This document shows positions 13,567-26,648 of a stretch of DNA of 39,913 nucleotides, one piece after another. Position 1 is the stretch's first letter. Every line of letters starts with the position of its first letter. The stretch lies in contig DUML01000007.1 in NCBI GenBank assembly GCA_012839895.1, positions 1-39,913 on the forward strand. The letters are read 5' to 3'. The position numbers and the translations under genes were made by a program. The notes below the pieces were generated by a model, which saw only the letters and a list, made by a program, of their open reading frames with translations, was not told the DNA's origin and ran no database searches. The DNA is from Peptococcaceae bacterium. Lineage in GTDB: Bacteria > Bacillota > Desulfitobacteriia > Desulfitobacteriales > Syntrophobotulaceae.

Positions 13567-14268
13567 GTGAGCCCAATGTCTAAAAATAAAGCTACCGATT
13601 ACAATAAACTGCTTAGGGCTAATATTGACCAAAAAGCTTGGGAAACCCTTATAAGCGTAGGGAACTTCAAGACTTATGGACCCGGAGAAGCTATCTATGT
13701 TCAGAACCAACCTAGTATAGGCCTGGTTTGTGTATTAAAGGGCAAAGTAAAAACTTCCATACTGTTCACCGATGGTACGGAAAAAATTTTTAATATTTTA
13801 GAAGCGCCGGCGATAATCGGCGAGACGGCAGCTATTGACGGCGGGCCGGGCATATGTTCTGCAACTGCCTTGACCAAAGTAGAAATCGTAGCAGTGCCAC
13901 CTGATAAGGCCAGAGAAGTTTTGTTACAGCACCCGATAGTAGCCTTGTCTCTCTTGGAGACGGTTGGCAAGAAGCTTCGGTGTATGGCTCTGCAGGCTGA
14001 AGATTTATCTTTACATAATATTTCCACAAGATTAGCCAGGTTGATTTTAAACTTTGAACAGTACGGCGTTTTCACCCATCAGGATGAAGAACATTGTTTG
14101 CAAATAACCCATGAGGAGCTTGCCAGCTTTGTTGGCACTACTCGCCCTAACGTTACTACTTTTTTAAATGAATTTGCCCGTAAAGGATTAATCAAAATTA
14201 AAAGAGGCAAAATAATAATTTTGGATTATGAGGGACTTTGCCGACACGCAGAGTCTGAAATAGTGTAA
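13567..14268 (+). CDS. Crp/Fnr-family transcriptional regulator
   Basis: The 233-aa protein has a cyclic-nucleotide-binding-like beta-barrel at about 25-135 (IIGETAAIDGGPGICSATA corresponds to the effector pocket), a dimerisation helix at about 125-150, and a winged helix from 150 (HTH about 181-209, THEELASFVGTTRPNVTTFL). Cysteines are scattered and do not form an Fnr-type N-terminal cluster, so oxygen sensing by an Fe-S cluster is unlikely. The recognition helix (TTRPNVTT) lacks the Glu and second Arg that CRP uses for TGTGA. The start is either GTG 13567 (AAAGGGA upstream) or ATG 13576. Its position directly before the TRAP operon makes it a candidate regulator of that operon, but this is inference. 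Confidence 0.88.
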   Translation: MSPMSKNKATDYNKLLRANIDQKAWETLISVGNFKTYGPGEAIYVQNQPSIGLVCVLKGKVKTSILFTDGTEKIFNILEAPAIIGETAAIDGGPGICSATALTKVEIVAVPPDKAREVLLQHPIVALSLLETVGKKLRCMALQAEDLSLHNISTRLARLILNFEQYGVFTHQDEEHCLQITHEELASFVGTTRPNVTTFLNEFARKGLIKIKRGKIIILDYEGLCRHAESEIV

Positions 14269-14596: not shown

Positions 14597-14620
14597 AAAT
14601 CATTGTGATTTATTGCACAA
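14597..14620. promoter_or_regulatory. Overlapping palindromes before the first TRAP operon
   Basis: AAATCA-TTG-TGATTT (14597-14611) is a perfect inverted repeat. It overlaps TTGTG-N8-CACAA (14603-14620, TTGTGATTTATTGCACAA), which resembles a Crp-type site. The element ends 34 bases before the dctQ start codon. A Crp/Fnr-family regulator is encoded immediately upstream. Confidence 0.4.
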
Positions 14621-14654
14621 AGTATTTAGCAAAAGTATAAGGGGGGAAAGTAAA

Positions 14655-15161
14655 ATGCAGTACATTAATCGGGTCATTGATTTCATTATCAATCTAATGG
14701 CCGGGATTGCGGCAGTAATCATGGCTGCTCTCCTGGTTGGTATCTGCTATGCCACTTTTTCACGGTTTGTGTTTAATGAACCGCTGGCCAGAATTGTGGA
14801 GTTGGCAGCCTACAGCCTAATCTATATCACTTTTTTGGCAGCGCCTTGGCTGTTAAAGCAACGAGGGCATATTAATGTCGATTTAATTCTTTTGGCTTTA
14901 AAGGGAAGAGCAAAAAGAGGCTTGATTCTTTTTACCGATTTTATAGGTGCAATTCTTTCCGCAGTACTCTTTTATTTCAGTTATCTTATCACTTTAAGCA
15001 ATTTTATGAATAATGTCAGGATTATGGACTCTTCCAATACTCCCCAATACCTGCTCTTAATTGCCATACCAATCAGCAGTTTTTTCCTGGCAATTCAGTT
15101 TATTCGCTTTATAAAGGAAGACATTGTCGCACTTAAAGAAGGGAAGGAAGGTGAACAGTAA
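14655..15161 (+). CDS. dctQ: TRAP transporter small membrane subunit (DctQ family), cassette 1
   Basis: DctQ is the four-helix membrane partner of DctM in tripartite sodium-coupled uptake of organic acids. The 168-aa protein has four hydrophobic segments and the family segment FSRFVFNEPLARIVELAAY. I start at ATG 14655 because an AAGGGGGGAAAG precedes it; the frame is open to TTG 14613, but those 14 residues have no counterpart in the second cassette's DctQ. The stop overlaps the dctM start by one base (TAATG). It is strongly similar by eye to the protein at 21866. Confidence 0.93.
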   Translation: MQYINRVIDFIINLMAGIAAVIMAALLVGICYATFSRFVFNEPLARIVELAAYSLIYITFLAAPWLLKQRGHINVDLILLALKGRAKRGLILFTDFIGAILSAVLFYFSYLITLSNFMNNVRIMDSSNTPQYLLLIAIPISSFFLAIQFIRFIKEDIVALKEGKEGEQ

Positions 15162-16468
15162 TGGAATGGTATATTGTACTTCTGCTTATATTTGTAGGTT
15201 TAATAGCCCTGATGTTTACCGGACTTCCTATTGCTTTTAGCTTTCTTGGTTTATCTTCGATAGTCATGTTTCTCCTTATGGGTGAGTTTGGCATCAGGCA
15301 GCTTGTCTTGGGGATGTACGATAGCCTTAACAGCTTTCCGTTTACGGCCATACCCTTTTTTATGATTCTCGGCGAAGTATTCTATCAATCGGGTATTGTC
15401 ACTAAAACCTTGGATACCCTGTCTCTTTTCGTCCGGAGAATCCCGGGGCGCCTCAGTGTTATCACTTTATTGGCAGGCGGGGTCTTTGCTGCCTTAAGCG
15501 GCTCAGTCGTAGCCAATGTGGCCATGTTCGGAGCGTTAATGTTGCCGGAGATGATGAGGAGAGGTTATAACAAATCATTGATCTCAGGTTCGATTATGGC
15601 TTCCGGGGCCTTGGCCATGGTTATTCCCCCCAGTGCCATTGCGGTGCTTTTGGGTGGCATAGCTCAGATCTCGGTCGGTAAGATTCTCATTGGTTCAATC
15701 TTACCAGGTGTATGTTTGGTAGTATTTTATATTGGCTATGTTGTTATTTCCTGCTTGCGTAAACCTTCTTTGGCTCCTACTTACGAAATAAATAAAGTTT
15801 CAACTAAAGAAATGTTTAAGGCAGCCGCAGTGGATATCCTACCCTTGCTCTTTATCTTCGTGCTGGTTATGGGGCTGATCTTTTTCGGAGTAGCCACACC
15901 GACAGAAGCGGCGGCTCTCGGAGCGCTTGGCGCTTTTGTTCTAACCATATTCTACCGCAGGTTTTCCCTGAAATTAGTCTACAATTCACTTATGAGTTCT
16001 TTAAAAGTAACAGCGATGATCCTAATGATTATTGCCGGTTCGGCAGGTTTCAGCCAGATCCTCGCTCTTACCGGCGCCAGCAGGGAAGCAGTGGCGGCAA
16101 TTCTGGCCCTACCTGTATCGCCGATGGTTATCTTATGGTTAATGCTTGGGGTTACCATCCTTCTTGGTTTCTTCATGGAACAAACTGCCATTATGATGAT
16201 TACTTTGCCATTATTTATGCCTATAGTCAATGCTTTAGGCTTTGATCAAGTCTGGTTTGCGGTCCTGATTCTGATTTGTTTACAAATTGGTCAGCTGACC
16301 CCGCCTGTAGGTCTGGCCCTCTTTACTATGAAAGGTGTATCGCCGCCGGAAGTTACCATGGGGGATATCTATAGAGGTGCGATACCTTATGTAATTTTGG
16401 ATATCGTAGTTTTAGCTCTCCTCGTGCTGGTTCCGCCGATCATTACTTTCCTGCCCAACTTCATATAA
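15161..16468 (+). CDS. dctM: TRAP transporter large membrane subunit (DctM family), cassette 1
   Basis: DctM forms the transport channel. The 435-aa protein has about 12 to 13 hydrophobic segments. Family motifs include GLPIAFSFLGL near the N-terminus, AALSGSVVANVAMFGALMLPEM, GSIMASGALAMVIPPSA, VATPTEAAALGALGA and LICLQIGQLTPPVGLALF. It is translationally coupled to dctQ. Near-identical to the protein at 22372 by eye, apart from scattered conservative changes. A gap of 174 bases without a terminator separates it from the binding-protein gene. Confidence 0.95.
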   Translation: MEWYIVLLLIFVGLIALMFTGLPIAFSFLGLSSIVMFLLMGEFGIRQLVLGMYDSLNSFPFTAIPFFMILGEVFYQSGIVTKTLDTLSLFVRRIPGRLSVITLLAGGVFAALSGSVVANVAMFGALMLPEMMRRGYNKSLISGSIMASGALAMVIPPSAIAVLLGGIAQISVGKILIGSILPGVCLVVFYIGYVVISCLRKPSLAPTYEINKVSTKEMFKAAAVDILPLLFIFVLVMGLIFFGVATPTEAAALGALGAFVLTIFYRRFSLKLVYNSLMSSLKVTAMILMIIAGSAGFSQILALTGASREAVAAILALPVSPMVILWLMLGVTILLGFFMEQTAIMMITLPLFMPIVNALGFDQVWFAVLILICLQIGQLTPPVGLALFTMKGVSPPEVTMGDIYRGAIPYVILDIVVLALLVLVPPIITFLPNFI

Positions 16469-16642
16469 TTAGAAACCGTAGGCTGTCTTTAAAAGCCGAA
16501 TATTAAGGGTGTTTCAAATCGTGAGGCAGGATAAGTTAATTCGGAACAAGCAGGGAGGTGATAGAGCAAAGGTACTATAAGTAAAAGGTTTTGTTTAAGT
16601 CATTAAAGAGAAAGGGAAATTAAGAAAGGGGATTTACGGTTT

Positions 16643-17662
16643 ATGACTAAAATGAAAAAGATTCTTATTGTTTTCTTTAGTGTACTCCTCGTGCTCTCTT
16701 TGGCGGGCTGCGGCGGTGGAGGAGCCCAAACCCCTCCTGCAAATGAGGAAGGAAAAGTAGTTAAATTAAAAGTTTACAGTGCTTGGGCTGAAAACAACGC
16801 CATGAATGTTCATCTGCAGCCTTTTATTGAAAAAGTAAAGGAAAAATCCAACGGCACACTTGAAATTGTCTGGGGCGGCGGACCGGAAGCAATCCCAACT
16901 CAACAATTAGCTGAAGCTATCAAAAATCAGATGGTTGATATAGCCTGGACAGCCCATACCTATAATATTTCCCATATCCCTGTCTTGGAAGGCGTCAAAC
17001 TGTCAACCTATGATTTCGATGAATTGAGGACATCGGGCGGTTTTGATTTCCTTGATAAGCTCTATCAGGAAAAAATGAATAACCATTTGCTCGGCCATAC
17101 CATGGGCGGGTTGGAATACAATCTCTATACCACCCAGAAAGAAGTCAAATCTATTGCAGACTTTAAAGGAATGACCATCCGGGGTACTCCCGCTTATCAG
17201 GCTTTCGTTGAAGGCCTTGGAGCTGCTGTTGTAAATACGGCTCCCGGTGAAGTATATCAGGCTCTTGAGCGTAATGTTGTTCAAGGCTATGGCTGGCCTA
17301 GTGTAGGAATTATTGACTTTGGTTGGCATGAAGTAACCGGGTATTGTATCGAGCCCTCTTTCTATAAAGTTGACGGCGCAATTCTGGTCAGTGATAAAGT
17401 CTGGCAGACTTTAAATGATACTCAAAAAGCGGCTCTAACCGATGCTGCGAAGGAAATCGAAATCGAAACCAAAGAATACTACGCAAAGAAAATTGCCGAA
17501 GAACGTCAAATTATTGAACAAACCGGAGTAAAAACTATTACTTTGCCTGATGATGTTGCGGCAGAGTATCTGAAAATTGCTTATGACAGCGCCTGGAATA
17601 ATGTTATCAAGAATGCACCTGAAGACGGACCTAAACTTCGTGAGCTGATTACTAAGAAATAA
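16643..17662 (+). CDS. dctP: TRAP transporter substrate-binding lipoprotein (DctP family), cassette 1
   Basis: This is the extracytoplasmic receptor that captures the substrate. The 339-aa precursor has a signal peptide with lipobox LAGC (lipidated Cys23) and a Gly/Ala/Pro linker, so it is anchored to the outer face of the membrane. The DctP fold is recognised from QQLAEAIKNQMVDIAW and from FKGMTIRGTP, where Arg180 is the conserved carboxylate-binding arginine. ALERNVVQGYGWP follows. AAAGGGG at 16625-16631 supports ATG 16643. The substrate cannot be read from the sequence; the conserved arginine argues for a carboxylate. Confidence 0.93.
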   Translation: MTKMKKILIVFFSVLLVLSLAGCGGGGAQTPPANEEGKVVKLKVYSAWAENNAMNVHLQPFIEKVKEKSNGTLEIVWGGGPEAIPTQQLAEAIKNQMVDIAWTAHTYNISHIPVLEGVKLSTYDFDELRTSGGFDFLDKLYQEKMNNHLLGHTMGGLEYNLYTTQKEVKSIADFKGMTIRGTPAYQAFVEGLGAAVVNTAPGEVYQALERNVVQGYGWPSVGIIDFGWHEVTGYCIEPSFYKVDGAILVSDKVWQTLNDTQKAALTDAAKEIEIETKEYYAKKIAEERQIIEQTGVKTITLPDDVAAEYLKIAYDSAWNNVIKNAPEDGPKLRELITKK

Positions 17663-17696
17663 ACTTAAATCAGCGTCGGCATTTCCGTTTTGAAAC

Positions 17697-17750
17697 AGAG
17701 TTTCCCCTGGAAAGTAACGGATTCAAGGTGCTTCTCAGGGGATTCTCTAT
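17697..17750 (+). other. Imperfect hairpin between dctP and the reductase gene
   Basis: AGAGTTTCCCCTG can pair with CAGGGGATTCTCT, with mismatches in the middle of the stem, around a loop of about 28 bases; AAAAAAG follows. It may be a weak terminator or an RNA-processing point that sets the level of binding-protein message. Confidence 0.35.
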
Positions 17751-17820
17751 AAAAAAGCGAAAATTGGAAATAGTAACAGGTAGTAAAGCAAAACAGACCA
17801 AACAATAAGGGATGATGAAC

Positions 17821-18756
17821 ATGAAAATTGCAATCATTGGTTCAGGGGCCATGGGAAGCCTATTTGGAGGATTACTAGCCGGAGTTACTGACACCTGCCT
17901 GTACGATGTCAATGAAGCACATATTGAGGCCATAAACCGCAATGGCCTGATCATGTCCCAAGGAGATCAGAAAAACATTGTCAAGGTGAGAGCGACCACC
18001 AACCCTGCTGAAATAGGCCGGATGGATGCTGTTATTATCTTCGTTAAATATCCATTTACCAGAAAAGCTATGATGGACGCTATGGTATCCTCCATTGGCC
18101 CTGACACCCTGGTTCTCACCGTTCAAAACGGCATAGGCAATGTAGAGATCATTAAGGAGTTTGTTCCTGAATCACAGATTGTTTATGGGCTTAGCACGTT
18201 AACCAGTGATATGGTAGGCCCAGGTCATATTGAGATGACTACCAAAAAGAAAGTACCCACCTGCATTTGGCCTCTAAACGGGGAAGTTACAAATAAATTA
18301 AGGAAGTTATGTGATTTGATGAATGAGGCCGGACTTAATACGGAAATCACTAAAGACGTGGACAGACAGATTTGGCAAAAACTGATGGTCAACGCTTCCG
18401 AAAATACCCTCTGTGCCCTTCTCAGACAAAATGTCTCAAGTATAATTGATACTCCTGCATCTTTTGAGATCGCCAAGCAGATTATCTTTGAAGTCGCGGA
18501 TGTTGCCCAGGCTAAAGGCATTAACATCAGCAGGGAAGAAGGGCTGGAACATGTTATCAAGGTAACCCGTTCCGTTCCGGAGCATGTACCGTCAATGGCG
18601 ATAGACATTAAAAATAAAAAACCGACTGAGATTGCCTGTTTGAATGAGGCTATCGCAGCTGAGGGGAAACGGCTTGGTGTACCGACCCCTATGACTGAAA
18701 CCGTAGCTAGAATGATCAAAGCCATCGAGTCTAATTACGATAAACTCGTTTATTAA
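17821..18756 (+). CDS. Ketopantoate reductase-like (ApbA/PanE family) oxidoreductase
   Basis: A 311-aa protein with an N-terminal Rossmann fold (GSGAMG at 7-12), FVKYPFT at about 74-80, VQNGIGN (101-107), and a C-terminal helical domain where Lys187 and Asn191 (QKLMVNASENT) match the catalytic region of PanE. PanE reduces 2-oxopantoate with NADPH, but many family members act on other 2-oxo or 2-hydroxy acids. The location between a TRAP transporter and M24 hydrolase-like genes suggests a catabolic role rather than coenzyme A synthesis. ATG 17821 is chosen because AAGGG at 17807-17811 is well spaced; ATGs at 17812 and 17815 sit too close to it. Its C-terminus is the template of the fragment at 24910. 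Confidence 0.85.
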   Translation: MKIAIIGSGAMGSLFGGLLAGVTDTCLYDVNEAHIEAINRNGLIMSQGDQKNIVKVRATTNPAEIGRMDAVIIFVKYPFTRKAMMDAMVSSIGPDTLVLTVQNGIGNVEIIKEFVPESQIVYGLSTLTSDMVGPGHIEMTTKKKVPTCIWPLNGEVTNKLRKLCDLMNEAGLNTEITKDVDRQIWQKLMVNASENTLCALLRQNVSSIIDTPASFEIAKQIIFEVADVAQAKGINISREEGLEHVIKVTRSVPEHVPSMAIDIKNKKPTEIACLNEAIAAEGKRLGVPTPMTETVARMIKAIESNYDKLVY

Positions 18757-18801
18757 AAATATATCCGCTCATTTAGGCAGTTCAGAAATGCAGCCAACTC
18801 G

Positions 18802-18830
18802 GAAAATAATCACATTTTAGGATTATTTTC
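18802..18830. other. Perfect 10-bp inverted repeat before the first M24 gene
   Basis: GAAAATAATC (18802-18811) and GATTATTTTC (18821-18830) flank a 9-base loop. Outside it, TTCAGAAA (18781) and TTTCTGAA extend the symmetry imperfectly. No long T run follows. It could be a partial terminator, an mRNA-stabilising stem or a regulator site between the reductase and M24 genes. Confidence 0.5.
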
Positions 18831-18878
18831 TGAAAATTACTTACAATATAAAAAAACTAAAACAAAGGAGGATAATAA

Positions 18879-20069
18879 ATGGGAGAAGTATTTCATGAAA
18901 GACTGAAATCGCCAATTCCCACCAGAGAATTGGAAAGACGTTCCCAAGAGTTGCTAAAAGTCATGAAACGGGAAAACCTTGATTGCATCCTGGCCCAGAA
19001 CATTACCCTGTACATGGGCGGAGCCAATCGTTGGTTGACGGATACCACTGCGGAAATTCACTATCCTCAGTCATCCTTCCTTACCAAGGATGGGGATATC
19101 GGCTACATTGCCTGCAGCGGACCGCCTCTTGATCTCTATCCCCCTTCCCACTTGTTGAGGATTGGCCAGCCCTGGGACGCAGCGCCATATTTTTCAGTTT
19201 TTAATTTTACCTGGGATTGGGAAGGCAAACTGTTTGAAAGATGGATTAAAGAAAACAACCCCAAAAGAATCGGTATTGCCGGAATGGAAATGTTCCATTG
19301 GAACTACTATGACTATTTGGAAAAGAACTTCCCCTACGTAGAATTTATTGATGTTTCTTCATTAATTGACGAAATCAAGGCAGTAAAAAGTGAAGACGAA
19401 ATTAATTTCTTGGAAAAATCCGCTTTTGTCCTGGATAAAGTCATGAATTACCTGCCTGCGGTGGCTCAGCCCGGTGTGCGGGAATACGAAGTCAGGTCCA
19501 AAGCCATGCAGTTGGCTTCAGATTTGGGTGGGGAAGAAGCGATTGTTATTATCGGGAGCGCCCCGAGAGATGAGAAGTTTGATTTAATGCCAAGCTTTTT
19601 CCAGAACAGGGAACTGCAAAAAGGAGACCAAATGTATGTCAAATTGCAGTGCAGCGGTCCAGGGGGCATGTACACCACTCTTGGCCGGATGTTTTCCATT
19701 GGTACCGAACCTTCCGCCAGCATGCAGCAAAGCCTGCAGGAGGCTATAGCTGCCCAGGATAAACTCGTAAGCATGCTTAAAGTTGGCATGGATCCCCAGG
19801 TTATTTTTGCCCAATACAACGAATACCTGGTTGCTCAAGGCTATAAACAGGAGACAGGCTTGTTCGCTTACGGACAGGGCTATGATCATATTGAAAGGCC
19901 CAGTATCCAGCCGGGTGAAACTTTGCCTCTGGCCAAAGATATGTGTATGGCTGTCAATACCAATTTAGTATCCGCTACAAGAACATTCTATCTTGCCGAT
20001 AGTTTCTTGCTTAAACCAAACGGTCCCCAAAGAATGAGTAAAACACCTTTAGCAATACTGCGCACTTAA
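18879..20069 (+). CDS. M24-family (creatinase/aminopeptidase P fold) protein, metal ligands not conserved
   Basis: A 396-aa protein with an N-terminal creatinase-like domain (about 1-165) and a C-terminal pita-bread domain from about 170 (EIKAVKSEDEINFLEKSA). The usual metal ligands of M24 peptidases are replaced: the segment normally carrying two Asp reads VKLQCSGPGGMYTTLGRMF, the usual GHGxG position reads AYGQGYDHIERP, and the usual Glu position reads MCMAVNTN. It is therefore unlikely to be a dinuclear metallopeptidase. Creatinase itself is a metal-free member of this fold, so a hydrolase acting on a small C-N bonded substrate is possible. AAAGGAGGA at about 18865 sets the start. It is paralogous to the next gene. 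Confidence 0.82.
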   Translation: MGEVFHERLKSPIPTRELERRSQELLKVMKRENLDCILAQNITLYMGGANRWLTDTTAEIHYPQSSFLTKDGDIGYIACSGPPLDLYPPSHLLRIGQPWDAAPYFSVFNFTWDWEGKLFERWIKENNPKRIGIAGMEMFHWNYYDYLEKNFPYVEFIDVSSLIDEIKAVKSEDEINFLEKSAFVLDKVMNYLPAVAQPGVREYEVRSKAMQLASDLGGEEAIVIIGSAPRDEKFDLMPSFFQNRELQKGDQMYVKLQCSGPGGMYTTLGRMFSIGTEPSASMQQSLQEAIAAQDKLVSMLKVGMDPQVIFAQYNEYLVAQGYKQETGLFAYGQGYDHIERPSIQPGETLPLAKDMCMAVNTNLVSATRTFYLADSFLLKPNGPQRMSKTPLAILRT

Positions 20070-20090
20070 TATGGGAAAGGAGTGACAAAA

Positions 20091-21275
20091 ATGAGTGTAG
20101 CCGAAAGAATTAGAAGACAGATTTCCGATAAAGAATTGCAGCGCCGCTGGCAGGCGACGAGAGAATTATTGAAAAAACATAACCTGGATTGTGCTTTAAC
20201 TCAAGGCAGTAATATGTTTTTGGGAGGGTATGTCCGCTATCTTACGGATATACCGGCTGAATACAATTATCGCATGACCGTGCTTTTCCCGGTAGATGAT
20301 GAAATCACTCTGGTCAGAACCAGCGCTTCGCCAATTCCGGCCTGGGCTTTAAGAGGAGTCAAAGAAGTATTGTATGCGCCCTTCGCTCCCACTCTCAATT
20401 ACACAGCTGAATCCGAATCCGGATTGGTTATTGACTACCTGCGCCGCAGAAATCCGAAAAGGGTAGGTTGGATTGGTAAAGCCATGCTCAGTGCCGGACT
20501 TATGCTAAGGCTAAGGCAAGCTTTCCCTCAGGTGGAATTTGTGGACATTACTGATGAATTCGATATGATCAAAGCACTTAAAAGCGACGAAGAAATGGAA
20601 CTCATCAGAGAAACCGCCCGCATCCAGGATGCTCTGTGGGCAGCTTTGCCGGCTATTGTTAAGGTCGGTATGACTGAATACCAAATCCGGGCCGAAGTTA
20701 TGCAGCTTCTTATTAACATGGGCAGTGAAGAACAATTGCTTTTCATAGGCACGGCTGAACCCGGTAAAGCTTGCGGGATGTCAACTTTCCAGTATGCTAA
20801 CCGGAGAGTTAAAGAAGGTGATTATGGCGTGCTCCTGGTGGAAGTTAACGGTCCTGGCGGTTATTACTGCGAATCAGCCCGTAACTTCTGCTTTGGCGAA
20901 CCTTATAAAGAATTGCAGGATGCCTGGGATGTAGCTGTAGAAGGCCAGCAATTAACTGCCGATCTTTTAAAACCCGGTACCCCGGCTAAGGAAATCGTCG
21001 CCAAGTACAATGAATTTGTGGCAGCCAAAGGTTACAGCCAGGAAGGCCGTCTCTATGGTCATTCCCAGGGCTATGACTTAATTGAACGTCCTGCCTTCAT
21101 GGCCTACCATAAATTTGGGGAAGAAACCATGACTATCGAAGCCGGTATGAATATCTCCCTGCATCCCTATTTAATTGATAAGGTTCAAACCGTCTACGTC
21201 AACGATAATTACTATGTAACAGAAAAGGGTGCCGAGAAAATCCATAAAACTCCGCCCGAAATAATTATTCTCTAG
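20091..21275 (+). CDS. Second M24-family (creatinase-like) protein
   Basis: A 394-aa paralogue of the preceding gene. The N-terminal domain is about 1-160. The pita-bread domain starts near DMIKALKSDEEMELIRETAR. In the ligand positions it has VEVNGPGGYYCESARNF (Glu for Asp) and GHSQGYDLIERP (His kept), and NISLHP replaces the usual Glu-Pro. The two paralogues therefore differ from each other at putative active-site positions and may form a hetero-oligomer or act on different substrates. AAAGGAG (20076-20082) supports ATG 20091, with 8-base spacing; GTG 20082 is within that ribosome site. Last gene of cassette 1 before a hairpin at 21434. Confidence 0.82.
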   Translation: MSVAERIRRQISDKELQRRWQATRELLKKHNLDCALTQGSNMFLGGYVRYLTDIPAEYNYRMTVLFPVDDEITLVRTSASPIPAWALRGVKEVLYAPFAPTLNYTAESESGLVIDYLRRRNPKRVGWIGKAMLSAGLMLRLRQAFPQVEFVDITDEFDMIKALKSDEEMELIRETARIQDALWAALPAIVKVGMTEYQIRAEVMQLLINMGSEEQLLFIGTAEPGKACGMSTFQYANRRVKEGDYGVLLVEVNGPGGYYCESARNFCFGEPYKELQDAWDVAVEGQQLTADLLKPGTPAKEIVAKYNEFVAAKGYSQEGRLYGHSQGYDLIERPAFMAYHKFGEETMTIEAGMNISLHPYLIDKVQTVYVNDNYYVTEKGAEKIHKTPPEIIIL

Positions 21276-21865
21276 ACCATATGAACCAGAAAAATATAAT
21301 CCTAAGCTAATAAATACAGTGCAATTAAGATTATTTTGCGTACAAAAGCAAATTTTCCGGCAAATTAAAAATGAAAGTGTAAAATTAAATAAAGTAAAAT
21401 ATTAAATTATCGTAATATCGATTAACAAATGTTTAAGGGGGTAATTGTGATTTATTCACATTAACCCCTTATCTCTTTTCTAATGCTAATTTTAATTTCA
21501 ATTCTAAATCAAAATCAAAAGCTAATTCAAAACTAATTCAAATTCTAATTTAAATTCTATACTAATTCAATTTTTAATGACTCAAACCAACTAACTAACA
21601 AAAATTACATACTTACCAATTTGCATAGGTTAAAGCTAAAACTGACCATACTGATATTGCAAAGATTAAAAATTTTAAACAGAAAAAACTGTTCCATATT
21701 TCACATTCCAACCGCCATTAGCGCTAAGATCGATCATTCCTTGCCTCCGGGGTGACAACGAGAAGCTCAAAGAAATAGAAGAGTCTTGGATATTATATGG
21801 GAACTATTCTTAAAGCATCATCATGCAACCTAAAGTATAAAGTGTAAGGGGGTACAGTAATAGAA
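21276..21865. other. AT-rich region between the M24 genes and the second TRAP cassette
   Basis: About 590 bases without a supportable gene. It holds the hairpin at 21434-21471, a low-complexity stretch at 21480-21580 in which CTAATT/ATTCAAA-like words recur irregularly, and a faint relic of the dispersed repeat at about 21735-21758 (CATTCCTTGCCTCCGGGGTG). I did not find a convincing promoter for dctQ2, though one is expected here. Confidence 0.6.
21434..21471 (+). terminator. Long hairpin after the second M24 gene
   Basis: TAAGGGG pairs with CCCCTTA, then TAAT with ATTA, then GTGA with TCAC around TTTAT, with single unpaired bases between. TCTCTTTTC follows. It probably ends the cassette 1 transcript. 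Its centre, TTGTGATTTATTCACA, also matches the palindrome at 14603, so a regulatory role is possible. Confidence 0.65.
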
Positions 21866-22372
21866 ATGGGACCCGTTAACCGAGTCATAGATTTCCTGAT
21901 TAATATCTTAGCCGCAATTGCAGCGGTAATCATGGGGCTGTTACTGATAGGCATCTGTTATGCAACTTTTTCCCGTTTTGTTTTCAATGAACCCTTGGCC
22001 AGAACAGTCGAACTGGCAGCTTACAGTTTGATTTATATTACCTTCCTTTCTGCACCTTGGCTGTTAAGGCAGAGGGGACATATCAATGTTGATTTAATCC
22101 TTCTGGCTTTAAAAGATAGAGCCAAAAGGGCGCTTTTGCTCTTCAACGACATTTTAGGAGTCATTATTTCTGTTTTCTTTTGTTATTTCAGTTATCTGGT
22201 AACCATGAGCAATATCAAAGAAGATGTTAGGATTATGGATTCTTCCAATACCCCCCAATGGTTGCTTCTGTTTGTTATACCCATCAGTTTTCTGTTTTTG
22301 ACCATTCAATTTTTACGCTTTATCCGGGAAGACATTATTCTGCTTAAAAAAGGGAAAGAAGGTGAACTGTAA
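21866..22372 (+). CDS. dctQ: TRAP transporter small membrane subunit (DctQ family), cassette 2
   Basis: 168 aa, the same length as the DctQ of cassette 1 and very similar through the whole chain, including FSRFVFNEPLAR, the QRGHINVDLILLALK segment and VRIMDSSNTPQ. Four hydrophobic segments. AAGGGGG at 21846-21852 is 13 bases before ATG, a long spacing, but no other start is available. It overlaps the next gene by one base, exactly as in cassette 1. Confidence 0.93.
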   Translation: MGPVNRVIDFLINILAAIAAVIMGLLLIGICYATFSRFVFNEPLARTVELAAYSLIYITFLSAPWLLRQRGHINVDLILLALKDRAKRALLLFNDILGVIISVFFCYFSYLVTMSNIKEDVRIMDSSNTPQWLLLFVIPISFLFLTIQFLRFIREDIILLKKGKEGEL

Positions 22373-23682
22373 TGGAATGGTATATGGTACTTTTGCTCAT
22401 TTTTGTAGGCCTCATCGCCATTATGTTTACCGGACTTCCCATTGCTTTTAGTTTTTTATTGGTATCTTCGATTGTAATGTTTTTCCTGATGGGGGAATTT
22501 GGTATTAGACAGCTTGTTTTAGGAATGTACGACAGCCTAAACAGCTTTCCTTTTACGACGATTCCCTTCTTTATGATTATGGGGGAAGTATTTTACCAAT
22601 CAGGGATAGTTACAAAAACCCTGGATACCCTATCACTTTTTGTGCGCCGCATTCCCGGCCGCCTGAGCGTCATAACCCTCATAGCAGGCGGGGTTTTTGC
22701 CGCCTTAAGCGGCTCGGTAGTAGCTAATGTAGCTATGTTCGGGGCTCTGATGCTACCGGAAATGATGCGCAGAGGTTATGATAAATCTCTAATTGCAGGT
22801 TCCATCATGGCTTCCGGTGCCTTGGCCATGGTTATCCCTCCCAGCGCAATAGCCGTTTTGCTTGGGGGAATAGCGCAGATTTCGGTAGGAAAGATCCTTA
22901 TCGGCTCAATCCTTCCGGGAGTTGTGTTAGTAATTTTCTATATTGGCTACGTTGTGATTTCAACTGTGCGGAAGCCTTCTTTGGCTCCGGTTTATGAAGT
23001 GGGGCATGTCTCCACGAGCGAGATGTTCAGAGCGGCTTTGGTTGATATCCTGCCCCTGTTCTTCATTTTTTTGTTGGTTATGGGTTTAATCTTTTTAGGT
23101 GTGGCTACCCCGACCGAAGCCTCTGCTCTGGGTGCCCTGGGAGCCCTTATATTAACCGTATTTTACAGGAGATTTTCCCTTAAGCTTGTATATGACTCTC
23201 TTTTAAACTCCTTGAAAGTAACGGCCATGATTTTAATGATTATTGCCGGCTCCGCCGGATTCAGCCAGATTCTTGCCCTGACAGGGGCCAGCCGGGAAGC
23301 GGTGGCTGCTATTTTGGCCTTGCCAGTATCCTCCATGGTAATTCTCTCGTTAATGCTCTGTATTACCATCCTGTTGGGCTTCTTCATGGAACAGACCGCG
23401 ATTATGATGATTACCTTGCCTTTGTTTATGCCCATCGTCAACGCCTTGGGATTTGACCAGGTCTGGTTTGCAGTTCTTATCTTAATCTGCCTGCAAATTG
23501 GCCAGCTTACACCGCCGGTGGGTTTAGCCCTCTTTACCATGAAAGGTGTTGCACCGCCTGAAGTTACCATGGGCGATATTTACCGGGGAGCTGTCCCCTA
23601 TGTTATCCTGGATATTATAGTTCTTGTTCTATTAGTGTTGGTTCCATCCATTATTACGTTCCTTCCAAATTTAGGAACGTAA
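22372..23682 (+). CDS. dctM: TRAP transporter large membrane subunit (DctM family), cassette 2
   Basis: 436 aa with the same segment order as the protein at 15161 and only scattered substitutions. Conserved blocks include AALSGSVVANVAMFGALMLPEMMRRG, MASGALAMVIPPSAIAVLL and LTPPVGLALFTMKGV. Such high similarity of channel subunits suggests a recent cassette duplication. Transport partner of the DctQ and DctP encoded on either side. Confidence 0.95.
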   Translation: MEWYMVLLLIFVGLIAIMFTGLPIAFSFLLVSSIVMFFLMGEFGIRQLVLGMYDSLNSFPFTTIPFFMIMGEVFYQSGIVTKTLDTLSLFVRRIPGRLSVITLIAGGVFAALSGSVVANVAMFGALMLPEMMRRGYDKSLIAGSIMASGALAMVIPPSAIAVLLGGIAQISVGKILIGSILPGVVLVIFYIGYVVISTVRKPSLAPVYEVGHVSTSEMFRAALVDILPLFFIFLLVMGLIFLGVATPTEASALGALGALILTVFYRRFSLKLVYDSLLNSLKVTAMILMIIAGSAGFSQILALTGASREAVAAILALPVSSMVILSLMLCITILLGFFMEQTAIMMITLPLFMPIVNALGFDQVWFAVLILICLQIGQLTPPVGLALFTMKGVAPPEVTMGDIYRGAVPYVILDIIVLVLLVLVPSIITFLPNLGT

Positions 23683-23794
23683 TATATAGTAAGAACAGGC
23701 AAACCAAAGTACCAAAGAGACTCAAGCCAAAGGAACGTTAAACCAAAATGACGTCATACCAAAAAAAATATCAAATTAGGAGGATTGGAGTATA

Positions 23795-24805
23795 ATGAAC
23801 AAAATGAAAAAGCTTTTGGTCATTGCTTTAAGTTTACTTGTTGCCATTACTTTTGCCGGCTGTGGTGGAGGCACCAAAACTCCGGCGGGTGAAGGGGAAA
23901 CAGTTACCCTGAAAATCTACAGTGCCTGGGCTGAGAATAATAGCATGAATGTCCACCTGAAACCTTTTGTGGACAAAGTAAACCAAAAGTCTAACGGTAC
24001 CTTGAAAATTGAATGGGGAGGCGGGCCGGAAGCTATCCCAACTCAACAATTAGCTGAAGCTATCAAAAACCAAATGGTTGATATTGCCTGGACAGCTCAT
24101 ACCTATAATATTTCCCATATCCCTGTTTTAGAAGGGGTTAAACTTTCGACTTATGATTTTGATGAGCTGAGGACCAACGGTGGCTTTGATTATCTCGACC
24201 AATTGTACCAGGAAAAAATGAATAACCGTTTATTGGGGCATACCATGGGCGGTTTGGAATACAATCTCTACACCACCCAGAAAGAAATTAAATCAATTGC
24301 CGACTTTAAAGGTTTGACCATCCGGGCAACACCTGCTTACCAAGCCTTTGTGGAAGGGTTAGGGGCAGCTGTGGTAAATACCGCCCCCGGTGAAGTCTAC
24401 CAAGCCCTGGAGCGTAATGTTGTACAAGGGTACGGTTGGCCCAGTGTGGGAATTGTGGATTTTGGCTGGCATGAAGTAACCGGCTATATGATTGAGCCAT
24501 CCTTCTATAAAGTAGACGGTGCAGTATTAATTAGTAACAAAGCCTGGAATAAATTAAACGATACCCAAAGAAAAGCTTTAACCGAAGCAGCTAAAGAAAT
24601 AGAATTGGAAACCGAAGAGTATTATAAAACTAAAATTGCTGAAGAACGCAAGGTAATTAAGGACGCAGGGGTAAAAACTACTACTTTAACCGGCGCTGTG
24701 GCCGATGAGTATTTAAAAATTGCTTATGAAAGTGCCTGGAACAATGTCATAAAAAATGCACCGGAAGAAGGCCCCAAACTTCGCGACCTCATTACCAAAA
24801 AGTAA
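23795..24805 (+). CDS. dctP: TRAP transporter substrate-binding lipoprotein (DctP family), cassette 2
   Basis: A 336-aa precursor with lipobox FAGC (lipidated Cys23) and a short linker. The mature part is closely similar to the receptor of cassette 1, with Arg177 in FKGLTIRATP as the carboxylate-binding residue. The ligand-contact region differs slightly (RATP instead of RGTP, GYMIEPS instead of GYCIEPS), so the two receptors may prefer related but different ligands. AGGAGG at 23778-23783 sets the start. It is followed by a small hairpin repeat and a gene remnant. Confidence 0.93.
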   Translation: MNKMKKLLVIALSLLVAITFAGCGGGTKTPAGEGETVTLKIYSAWAENNSMNVHLKPFVDKVNQKSNGTLKIEWGGGPEAIPTQQLAEAIKNQMVDIAWTAHTYNISHIPVLEGVKLSTYDFDELRTNGGFDYLDQLYQEKMNNRLLGHTMGGLEYNLYTTQKEIKSIADFKGLTIRATPAYQAFVEGLGAAVVNTAPGEVYQALERNVVQGYGWPSVGIVDFGWHEVTGYMIEPSFYKVDGAVLISNKAWNKLNDTQRKALTEAAKEIELETEEYYKTKIAEERKVIKDAGVKTTTLTGAVADEYLKIAYESAWNNVIKNAPEEGPKLRDLITKK

Positions 24806-24836
24806 AACAAGTGCTCAAAGTTTAAAAAGGGGATAG

Positions 24837-24891
24837 TATGGGACAAGAAGACGGTTCTTTTGGGAAAAAGGGACGGCTCTTCTGTCCCATA
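24837..24891. repeat. 55-bp GGGAC...GTCCC hairpin element
   Basis: TATGGGACA...GAAGA (from 24837) pairs with TCTTC...TGTCCCATA (to 24891), with one bulged base. Inside are the words ACGGTTCTTTTGGG and GGGACGGCTC. Similar GGGACA/TGTCCC elements containing GAACCGTCCC-like cores are, from general knowledge, dispersed in Clostridia genomes. Here it sits directly before the truncated reductase remnant. Confidence 0.7.
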
Positions 24892-24906
24892 TTCTGCTTA
24901 GGCAGA

Positions 24907-24999
24907 ATGAAACGCCTAAGGATTTCTACGCCAATGCTGGAGACAGTAGCCAGGATGATTAGGGCAATTGAAACAAATTACGATAAACTAGTCTATTGA
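24907..24999 (+). pseudogene. 3' remnant of a ketopantoate reductase-like gene
   Basis: Only the last 28 codons remain, reading KRLRISTPMLETVARMIR then AIETNYDKLVY and a stop. The intact gene at 17821 ends KRLGVPTPMTETVARMIK then AIESNYDKLVY and a stop, so about five residues differ. The fragment occupies the same place relative to dctP2 as the intact gene does relative to dctP1. The 5' part is missing and the hairpin repeat at 24837-24891 lies at the break. An in-frame ATG at 24907 exists but has no clear ribosome site. Confidence 0.9.
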
Positions 25000-25027: not shown

Positions 25028-26023
25028 TTAGTTTAAATCTATAAGCTTGTAATTTCTGCTGCCCAAACCGATTTTTTCAGCATATACTAACTGAATAGTG
25101 GCATCCACCGAAGGATATAGAGCCTTAAATCTATCTTTTTCGGTATATTTTTCGCCTAGTTGCGATTCAGGATTTCCAGGAGCATGATTAACTAAATCAA
25201 GAGCGGCTTGGTCAATAGCCACGGGATCTTTAGAAGCCAAAATGCCTATATCCCCTACAATAGGAACGTCATTCCAACCAAAACAATCACACACAGGGGA
25301 GACGTTTGTAATAAAAGTTATAAATCCTACCTTATCTGCTTTCCCGTAGAGAGCACCCGCGGCATATTCTACGGTCTTTTCTTGAATTTTAGTTAGATCG
25401 GACTTCCACTCCATCACAATAGCCTGGTGAGGGCATGTTACAGAGCATTCAGCGCAACCTATACATATTTCTTCTAAAATCTTAGCTTTATTCTCCACTG
25501 TAATGGCATCGGCTGGGCATACCGTAATACATTTGCGACATCTTTTACACTTGTTTTCTTCAACATAAGGTAAGACATCCGAATGTTGCTGTAGCTTGCC
25601 TGCTCGGCTGCCAAAACCCATTCCTAAATTCTTTAAGGCTCCTCCAAATCCATGAAGATTGGCACCTTTAAAATGGGAAACAGTTAATATAAAGTCACTC
25701 AGGCAAGCTGTACTAGCGATTTTCACTTCTTGAAAATGTTTTAATTTTACGGGGATGGAAATATAATCTTTTCCTTTAAGACCGTCAGCAATTATTAAAG
25801 GAACTCCAACAACTGAAAAATCAAATCCATTTAAAATTGCCGTCTCAAGATGATCGACAGCGTTGCTTCTGGTTCCCACATAGAGAGTATTGGTATCGGT
25901 TAGGAAAGCTTTACCGCCTTTTTCCTTGATCAGGTCAACCAAACATCGGATATACTGAGGACGAATATAAGCAAGATTGCCGCGTTCTCCAAAATGTATT
26001 TTTATTGCTACAAAATTTTGGGG
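25028..26023 (-). pseudogene. 5'-truncated DUF362 / 4Fe-4S ferredoxin-domain protein gene
   Basis: The frame encodes most of a DUF362 protein with two CxxCxxCxxxCP iron-sulfur motifs (CKRCRKCITVCP and CIGCAECSVTCP). Homology begins abruptly at about 26020 with QNFVAIKIHFGERGN; the normal beginning of the family (about 40 residues before LVAIKLHFGE) is absent. No ATG or GTG precedes the homology in frame, and a TAG lies at 26033-26035. The only in-frame start is TTG 25942, without a ribosome site and inside the conserved domain. The rest of the frame is intact, so the truncation may be recent. Upstream sequence belongs to another broken gene. Confidence 0.75.
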
Positions 26024-26024
26024 T

Positions 26025-26168
26025 TCAATGGCCTACACGCAAAATTGTTGGAACTGCAGCCATTAAGTCATCATGAAGCTTAACTGCCTTAGTCCATTGT
26101 TCAATTTCCCATTCAGACTTAACCGCTTTGATCCTATCCATCATATCAGTGGCATCAACAAATTCGAC
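26025..26168 (-). pseudogene. Internal fragment of a third M24-family gene
   Basis: On the minus strand the frame reads VEFVDATDMMDRIKAVKS, EWEIEQWTKAVKLHDDLM, AAVPTILRVGH, then TGA (26025-26027). The gene at 20091 has VEFVDITDEFDMIKALKS and AALPAIVKVGM at the same spacing, so this is the domain junction of an M24 protein. Both ends are cut off: upstream it joins the methyltransferase fragment (opposite strand) near 26160-26168, downstream the DUF362 fragment near 26020. Confidence 0.75.
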
Positions 26169-26648
26169 GTCTCAAACGCTGCTCTGCATTGGGTCAAAGA
26201 TCATGAGAAGTTGCTGCAGAATTGTTATAGAGCGCTAAAGGCTGGTGGTGTAATACGGTTTAATTTTGCGGGAGACGGAAATTGTTCCAATTTTATCGAG
26301 ATAATTCATGATGTTATGAATTATCCACATTACAAGGTGTATTTTAATAATTTTGTATGGCCATGGTTTATGCCACGGATAAGTGAGTACGAAAGATTAT
26401 TAAACCAACAAAAATTTAAAGAATTGCGCTGCTGGGAAGAAAATGCAGATAGAAATTTTAGAACAAAAGATGAAATTGTTAAATGGATTGACCAGCCTTC
26501 TATTGTACCGTTTTTAGAGGTTCTTCCCAAAGAAAAACAACCAGGGTTCAGAGATGAAGTTGTGAATAGAATGGTTTATAAAACCAAAAACTCGGATGGA
26601 ACTTATTTTGAAACTTTTAGAAGGATAAATGTTTTTGCAAGAAAATGA
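26160..26648 (+). pseudogene. 5'-truncated class I SAM-dependent methyltransferase gene
   Basis: From KFDVSNAALHWVKDHEKLLQ onward the frame matches the C-terminal two-thirds of trans-aconitate methyltransferase-like proteins (the FSNAxLHW motif, then LKAGGVIRFNF, and a helical C-terminal half ending FRRINVFARK). The SAM-binding start with its GxGxG motif is missing. The open frame extends back to 26073, but those residues are the reverse complement of the M24 fragment and bear no relation to the family. It is probably non-functional. Confidence 0.75.

Follow-up and report, generated by a model that had tools for sequence, protein, structure and literature searches.

The closest described parallel found for the gene set analysed here is ectoine catabolism, where a tripartite ATP-independent periplasmic (TRAP) importer and an M24 hydrolase, DoeA, belong to one pathway. 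Creatinase (1chm) and EutD/DoeA (6yo9) carry the pita-bread fold without the canonical metal set, and the Polaromonas TRAP protein Bpro_4736 (4mnc, 4mni) is the closest solved relative, by sequence and by fold, of the receptor discussed below. The window studied, a stretch of 39,913 nucleotides that makes up one entire contig (C59) of the 2.84-Mb draft genome of a Peptococcaceae bacterium, likewise combines TRAP genes, in two copies (cassettes 1 and 2), with M24 genes, M24a and M24b, whose products also lack the canonical metal set, and it includes a PanE-like gene. We consider it slightly better than an even bet that this locus is a CRP/FNR-controlled catabolic operon, predicted to serve a 2-oxo/2-hydroxy-acid carboxylate, probably with a side chain that is bulky or branched at C3, or an amide-like conjugate of such an acid. 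The first-pass annotation of this DNA could name no pathway for the combination; this still holds in that a search by terms of the open-licence literature gave no description of the M24/TRAP gene set, with the ectoine pathway as the only parallel, but for the substrate a narrower class, 2-oxo/2-hydroxy acids, can be given. The locus is thus made of known protein families in a recurring combination for which no description was found, plus an M24 subfamily with an altered active site. Its genes are the following.

14655..15161, plus strand: dctQ1, TRAP small membrane subunit (PF04290, 6.6e-23)
15161..16468, plus strand: dctM1, TRAP large membrane subunit (PF06808, 9.1e-79; TIGR00786 over cut-off)
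16643..17662, plus strand: dctP1, TRAP solute-binding lipoprotein with conserved Arg180 (PF03480, 3.8e-32)
17812..18756, plus strand: PanE-like 2-oxoacid reductase / D-2-hydroxyacid dehydrogenase (TIGR00745, 231 bits, cut-off 141)
18879..20069, plus strand: M24a, degenerate creatinase-like paralogue (PF00557, 5.9e-17)
20091..21275, plus strand: M24b, creatinase/EutD-like protein with altered ligand set (PF00557, 9.4e-29)
21866..22372, plus strand: dctQ2 (74% identity with dctQ1)
22372..23682, plus strand: dctM2 (90% identity with dctM1)
23795..24805, plus strand: dctP2 (81% identity with dctP1)
24910..24999, plus strand: surviving 3′ end of a second panE, 30 codons including the stop (tblastn 3e-11)

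That dctQ-dctM-dctP (hereafter QMP) occurs twice, with the dctQ stop and the dctM start overlapping as TAATG in both cassettes, agrees with the first-pass annotation. DctQ, DctM and DctP are separate subunits encoded by overlapping genes in one operon and score over the Pfam cut-offs, as do ApbA/ApbA_C in the PanE-like protein and Peptidase_M24 in M24a and M24b. A comparison with Rfam gave no match.

The M24 proteins of this type recur beside genes for 2-hydroxyacid chemistry. A scan of the genome collection with an M24 alignment yielded 78 loci, from Bacillota, Deltaproteobacteria, Chitinivibrionales, Spirochaetales, Pseudomonadota, Bathyarchaeota and others, and neighbourhoods were counted for 84 distinct M24 copies with the QGYD-ERP motif. 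A 2-hydroxyacid dehydrogenase-type gene, that is, one of the D-isomer-specific, PanE-like or isocitrate/isopropylmalate type, stood in a co-directional run with M24 in 38 of the 84 cases, and a component of a TRAP or tripartite tricarboxylate (TTT) transporter in 34. Such dehydrogenase-type genes made up 31 of 138 immediate M24 neighbours as against 11 of 639 distant genes (Fisher 2e-16, a p value that overstates independence, since the loci were collected through M24 and are partly related). The D-2-hydroxyacid dehydrogenase (D2HDH) and PanE were never found in the same run, which suggests that one takes the place of the other. The PanE clade of the window accompanies M24a/M24b in loci L021, L022 and L138, and the transporters beside the M24 clade vary, including several TRAP types, TctC, a Na/sulphate-type symporter and members of the major facilitator superfamily.

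Other M24 neighbourhoods were also seen. In L027 and L034 (Clostridium thailandense, Eubacterium ramulus) M24 lies beside citrate-lyase alpha/beta (CitF, CitE), malic enzyme and two D2HDH genes. Elsewhere in the genome under study, contig C129 (L017) has a second TRAP cluster with M24-like, isocitrate-dehydrogenase-like and hydantoinase-like genes, and contig C33 (L141) a further DctP-M24 pair.

The altered active site of the subfamily is apparent at the metal-ligand positions of prolidase 1pv9, which we take to be D209, D220, H284, E313 and E327. M24b has L249, E261, H324, H358 and N371 there, keeping one of the five (H284) while D209 is replaced by L, D220 by E, E313 by H and E327 by N. The window's M24a keeps none (T267, Y331, N360 and A373 among its ligand positions). 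The pattern extends to the whole clade. In 75 of the 75 non-M24a members the five positions read L/M, E/H, H, H and a residue that is not acidic; in the M24a members they read non-acidic, T, Y/F/H, N and A. The Peptidase_M24 domain is therefore present without the dinuclear D, D, H, E, E set. The first-pass description of both proteins as metal-free fits M24a exactly, while M24b retains one canonical ligand and has E and H at two other positions. Judged from these residues, M24b is not a canonical dinuclear metalloenzyme, and its invariant E/H-H-H set might hold one metal or act as in creatinase. Since M24a has lost that set, it is probably a structural or regulatory partner.

M24a and M24b are 33% identical and fall into two clades, each with 100% support, and the tandem occurs in 8 genomes, with one further contig broken off behind M24a. 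A structural model of M24b (pLDDT 89) gave practically tied fold Z scores with EutD (6yo9, 37.3), creatinase (1chm, 36.8) and prolidase (5cde, 36.7). Identity with creatinase/EutD is 17-22%, and M24b has invariant residues of its own (E261, H324, Q326, D329, R333 and H358). The DoeA models of NCBIfam gave 43.4 and 41.3 bits, far short of their cut-offs of 575 and 613. Sequence searches with the M24 proteins rank prolidases first (best matches 1pv9 and 3q6d), but the ligands differ as described.

On the transport side, the two receptors are strikingly uneven in their divergence. DctP1 and DctP2 are 51% identical in the signal peptide and lipobox linker, 74% in residues 41-78 and 72% in residues 246-339, as against 95% in residues 79-245, which include Arg180 and the PGEVYQALE stretch. 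The supposition that the receptors are now diverging is thus not supported, the differences lying in the signal peptide and the C-terminus, and the simplest reading of the alignment would be the same ligand in two copies. An importer pair that was kept for long, with the central region of its receptor nearly frozen, argues for dosage or regulation rather than for new specificity. The carboxylate-binding arginine, R180, is invariant in the 11 aligned DctP proteins and in 4mnc. The DctP1 model (pLDDT 89) matched 4mni and 4mnc with Z scores of 36.5 and 36.3 (next entry 32.4), Foldseek gave 3.9e-27 for 4mni (4e-20 for the next) and phmmer 168.8 bits for 4mnc/4mni (54 for the next). Both DctP1 and Bpro_4736 have conserved stretches in the binding region, e.g. 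PGEVYxALExxVVxGYGWP; the two are 33% identical, and DctP1, in contrast to Bpro_4736, is a lipoprotein and comes from an anaerobic member of the Bacillota.

When 398 genomes of the phylum were scanned with a DctP profile, nine matched, the window's own included. Among the loci read from this search, the TRAP clade adjoins PorG-GltD-PorA-PorB in three (L169, L171 and L176), as it also does in L012, and an M24-D2HDH-QMP arrangement occurs in one, of Moorella (L168). An assignment of the L012 Por genes to phenylglyoxylate dehydrogenase was rejected, the PadG/PadI models scoring below the PorA and 2-ketoisovalerate models; as all of these remain under their own cut-offs, the genes are called only 2-oxoacid oxidoreductase, with the substrate left unspecified. 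In L012 (genome G045) the TRAP clade lies between this 2-oxoacid:ferredoxin oxidoreductase set, a xanthine-dehydrogenase-like set and a D-hydantoinase-like gene.

The PanE-like protein has ApbA and ApbA_C domains and exceeds the TIGR00745 cut-off. Its closest solved sequences are 2ew2, 8wl3 and 3wfi (126-136 bits), as against 41 bits for E. coli PanE (1ks9). We take 3wfi to be a D-mandelate dehydrogenase, and scores of 126-136 bits to the branch of these enzymes (3wfi, 3wfj, 5x20) suggest that the window's protein lies near D-mandelate-type dehydrogenases. For the enterococcal enzymes we know of no described gene context with TRAP and M24 genes. An enterococcal D-mandelate dehydrogenase of the same family is highly active towards 2-ketoisovalerate and benzoylformate (PMC4230899). 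No TIGR00745 member besides the window's gene exceeds the cut-off in the genome, which does have panB (contigs C19 and C59).

The likeness of the two cassettes is far above chance. At the protein level, DctQ is identical at 125/168 positions, DctM at 393/435 and DctP at 273/336 (74, 90 and 81%), and the DNA identities of dctQ, dctM and dctP are 72, 76 and 77%; the channel subunits are near-identical, as had been noted, in protein (DctM 90%) but not in DNA (76%). With blastn, 14632-16461 pairs with 21839-23672, 16643-17663 with 23795-24806 and, in the panE tail, 18697-18754 with 24940-24997 (E 6e-6), and the intergenic DNA is otherwise unrelated. In phylogenetic trees, DctM1 and DctM2 are sisters (support 100/99), as are DctP1 and DctP2 (100/100), so that the closest relatives of both lie in the other cassette and not in other lineages, in line with the local duplication proposed in the first-pass annotation. 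That proposal had called the duplication recent, which the comparison of dN and dS does not bear out: silent sites are saturated (dS 1.7 to infinite) and dN is 0.07-0.17, and the copies must therefore be old and under strong purifying selection.

Nor does the duplication appear to cover a whole unit of uptake and catabolism, as had been thought. Two relatives have M24a-M24b upstream of a single QMP: the gene order is M24a-M24b-QMP-panE in Oscillospiraceae L022 and crp-M24a-M24b-QMP in Gracilibacter L024. We infer from this that the window reads [QMP-panE]-M24a-M24b-[QMP-panE remnant], the upstream block being the added copy and the duplicated unit QMP-panE. M24a and M24b, as two fully supported clades found in tandem across genomes, are old and predate the duplication. 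The reductase tail behind cassette 2 proved genuine, with 24/30 codons specifying the same residue (stop included). It differs from panE by 15 silent changes, with third positions identical in 10/30. With residues kept while third positions changed, selection probably acted on the second panE over most of its existence, and the gene broke later. The break was checked for a repeated element, and the junction is single-copy in the genome. On this evidence, an ancestral M24a-M24b-QMP-panE operon would have gained a tandem QMP-panE copy, both copies would have been kept by purifying selection until silent sites were saturated, and the loss of the downstream panE would be more recent; what remains is a single reductase and a single M24 pair with two importers, probably for the same or very similar ligands.

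An M24 relic lies further downstream, at 26028-26198 on the minus strand (43% identity over 53 amino acids, one internal TGA). It adjoins a DUF362/4Fe-4S gene (25028-25942) and an apparently 5′-truncated methyltransferase open reading frame (26073-26648), and the region looks like a deletion scar. As it is on the wrong strand and beside another gene, the relic was rejected as a lost M24 gene of cassette 2.

Both cassettes are preceded by a candidate regulatory site.

13567..14268, plus strand: gene for a regulator of the CRP/FNR family, upstream of cassette 1 (Pfam cNMP_binding and HTH_Crp_2, both above cut-off)
14603..14620, no strand assigned: CRP-like palindrome TTGTGATTTATTGCACAA (site 1), 11/12 consensus positions, 35 bp before the dctQ1 start
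21445..21461, no strand assigned: CRP-like palindrome TTGTGATTTATTCACAT (site 2), 11/12, in the M24b-dctQ2 gap ahead of cassette 2
21478..21572, no strand assigned: AT-rich short-period repeat between site 2 and dctQ2 (TRF period 12 and 6)

The two sites have ATTGTGATTTATT in common and are the two best CRP-like palindromes in the 40 kb, the sole 11/12 matches against a Markov expectation of 0.15 for the window, and two such sites occurred in 0 of 400 simulated gap pairs. Genes of the CRP family are likewise neighbours of M24a/M24b in L019, L020, L022, L024, L129 and L138. An equally good site (score 11) was not found upstream of the relatives' operons, so that the evidence for the regulatory link comes from this one genome.

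Several other explanations have to be set against a catabolic operon for 2-oxo/2-hydroxy acids. The most credible of them, though still unlikely, is that the PanE-like gene serves to make coenzyme A, its place in a TRAP operon being a matter of chance. Since the genome has panB and no other TIGR00745 member above the cut-off, the gene could play that part, but the same PanE clade accompanies M24a/M24b in the three loci given above, the second panE was duplicated with QMP and long maintained by selection, and IlvC is also able to reduce ketopantoate. Use of pantothenate or pantoate is a shade less probable: M24a/M24b would be a pantothenate amidohydrolase and PanE, working backwards, would turn D-pantoate into ketopantoate, from which 2-ketoisovalerate would follow. 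Pantoate is indeed a C3-branched D-2-hydroxyacid held in an amide, this rival too can appeal to the sole PanE-like gene over the cut-off, and PorA/PorB near related TRAPs score well, under cut-offs, on 2-ketoisovalerate-type models; the cluster, however, has no pantothenate-specific gene, and many relatives have an unrelated D-2-hydroxyacid dehydrogenase instead.

We give similarly little credence to peptide or amino-acid scavenging, with prolidase-like M24 peptidases and a TRAP importing an unrelated acid. The tied fold scores and the top rank of prolidases in sequence searches would fit, but every member has lost three of the five metal ligands or has them changed in kind (five of five in most M24a), and the clade neighbours carboxylate transporters and 2-hydroxyacid dehydrogenases across phyla. 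Equally improbable is a separate acquisition of the cassettes by horizontal transfer rather than local duplication. The DNA identity of only 72-77%, the unrelated intergenic sequence and a tree that does not settle whether DctQ1 and DctQ2 are sisters would allow it, whereas the fully supported DctM and DctP pairs and the gene order common to both cassettes, panE tail and palindrome included, speak against it.

The proposed catabolic operon has its own weak points. DctP1 and 4mni are only 33% identical, and 4mnc/4mni are presumably benzoylformate complexes, a ligand that a search of the open-licence literature did not confirm. In other genomes the M24 clade keeps company with different transporters and with genes of the CitE/CitF/malic enzyme or isocitrate-dehydrogenase type, suggesting that substrates differ between lineages. 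To these come the unsettled DctQ sisterhood and the part in coenzyme A synthesis that the sole PanE, beside panB, could have.

If the locus does work as a catabolic operon for such an acid, DctP1 or DctP2 would catch the acid outside through Arg180, the ligand class being predicted, and pass it to DctQM. M24b, with the degenerate M24a as a putative partner subunit, may then break a C-N or similar bond, either like creatinase/EutD, without a dinuclear metal centre, or with one metal at E261-H324-H358. The PanE-like enzyme would interconvert the D-2-hydroxyacid and the 2-oxoacid, and the 2-oxoacid would feed acyl-CoA formation elsewhere. A wider proposal, which we put forward tentatively and hold to be possible rather than probable, is that the M24 clade with QGYD-ERP and E/H-H-H is a new subfamily, mononuclear-metal or metal-free, that frees D-2-hydroxyacids/2-oxoacids from conjugates in anaerobes, forms in Bacillota an obligate active/inactive heterodimer and is coupled to a 2-hydroxyacid dehydrogenase from any one of three unrelated families.

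The analysis turns an unnamed cluster into a testable module built around a widespread creatinase-like subfamily with an altered active site. Gene neighbourhood ties this M24 subfamily to 2-hydroxyacid chemistry in several phyla, gut and termite bacteria included, and once the substrate is known, a catabolic pathway could be named and the labelling of such genes as peptidases, which is common, put right.

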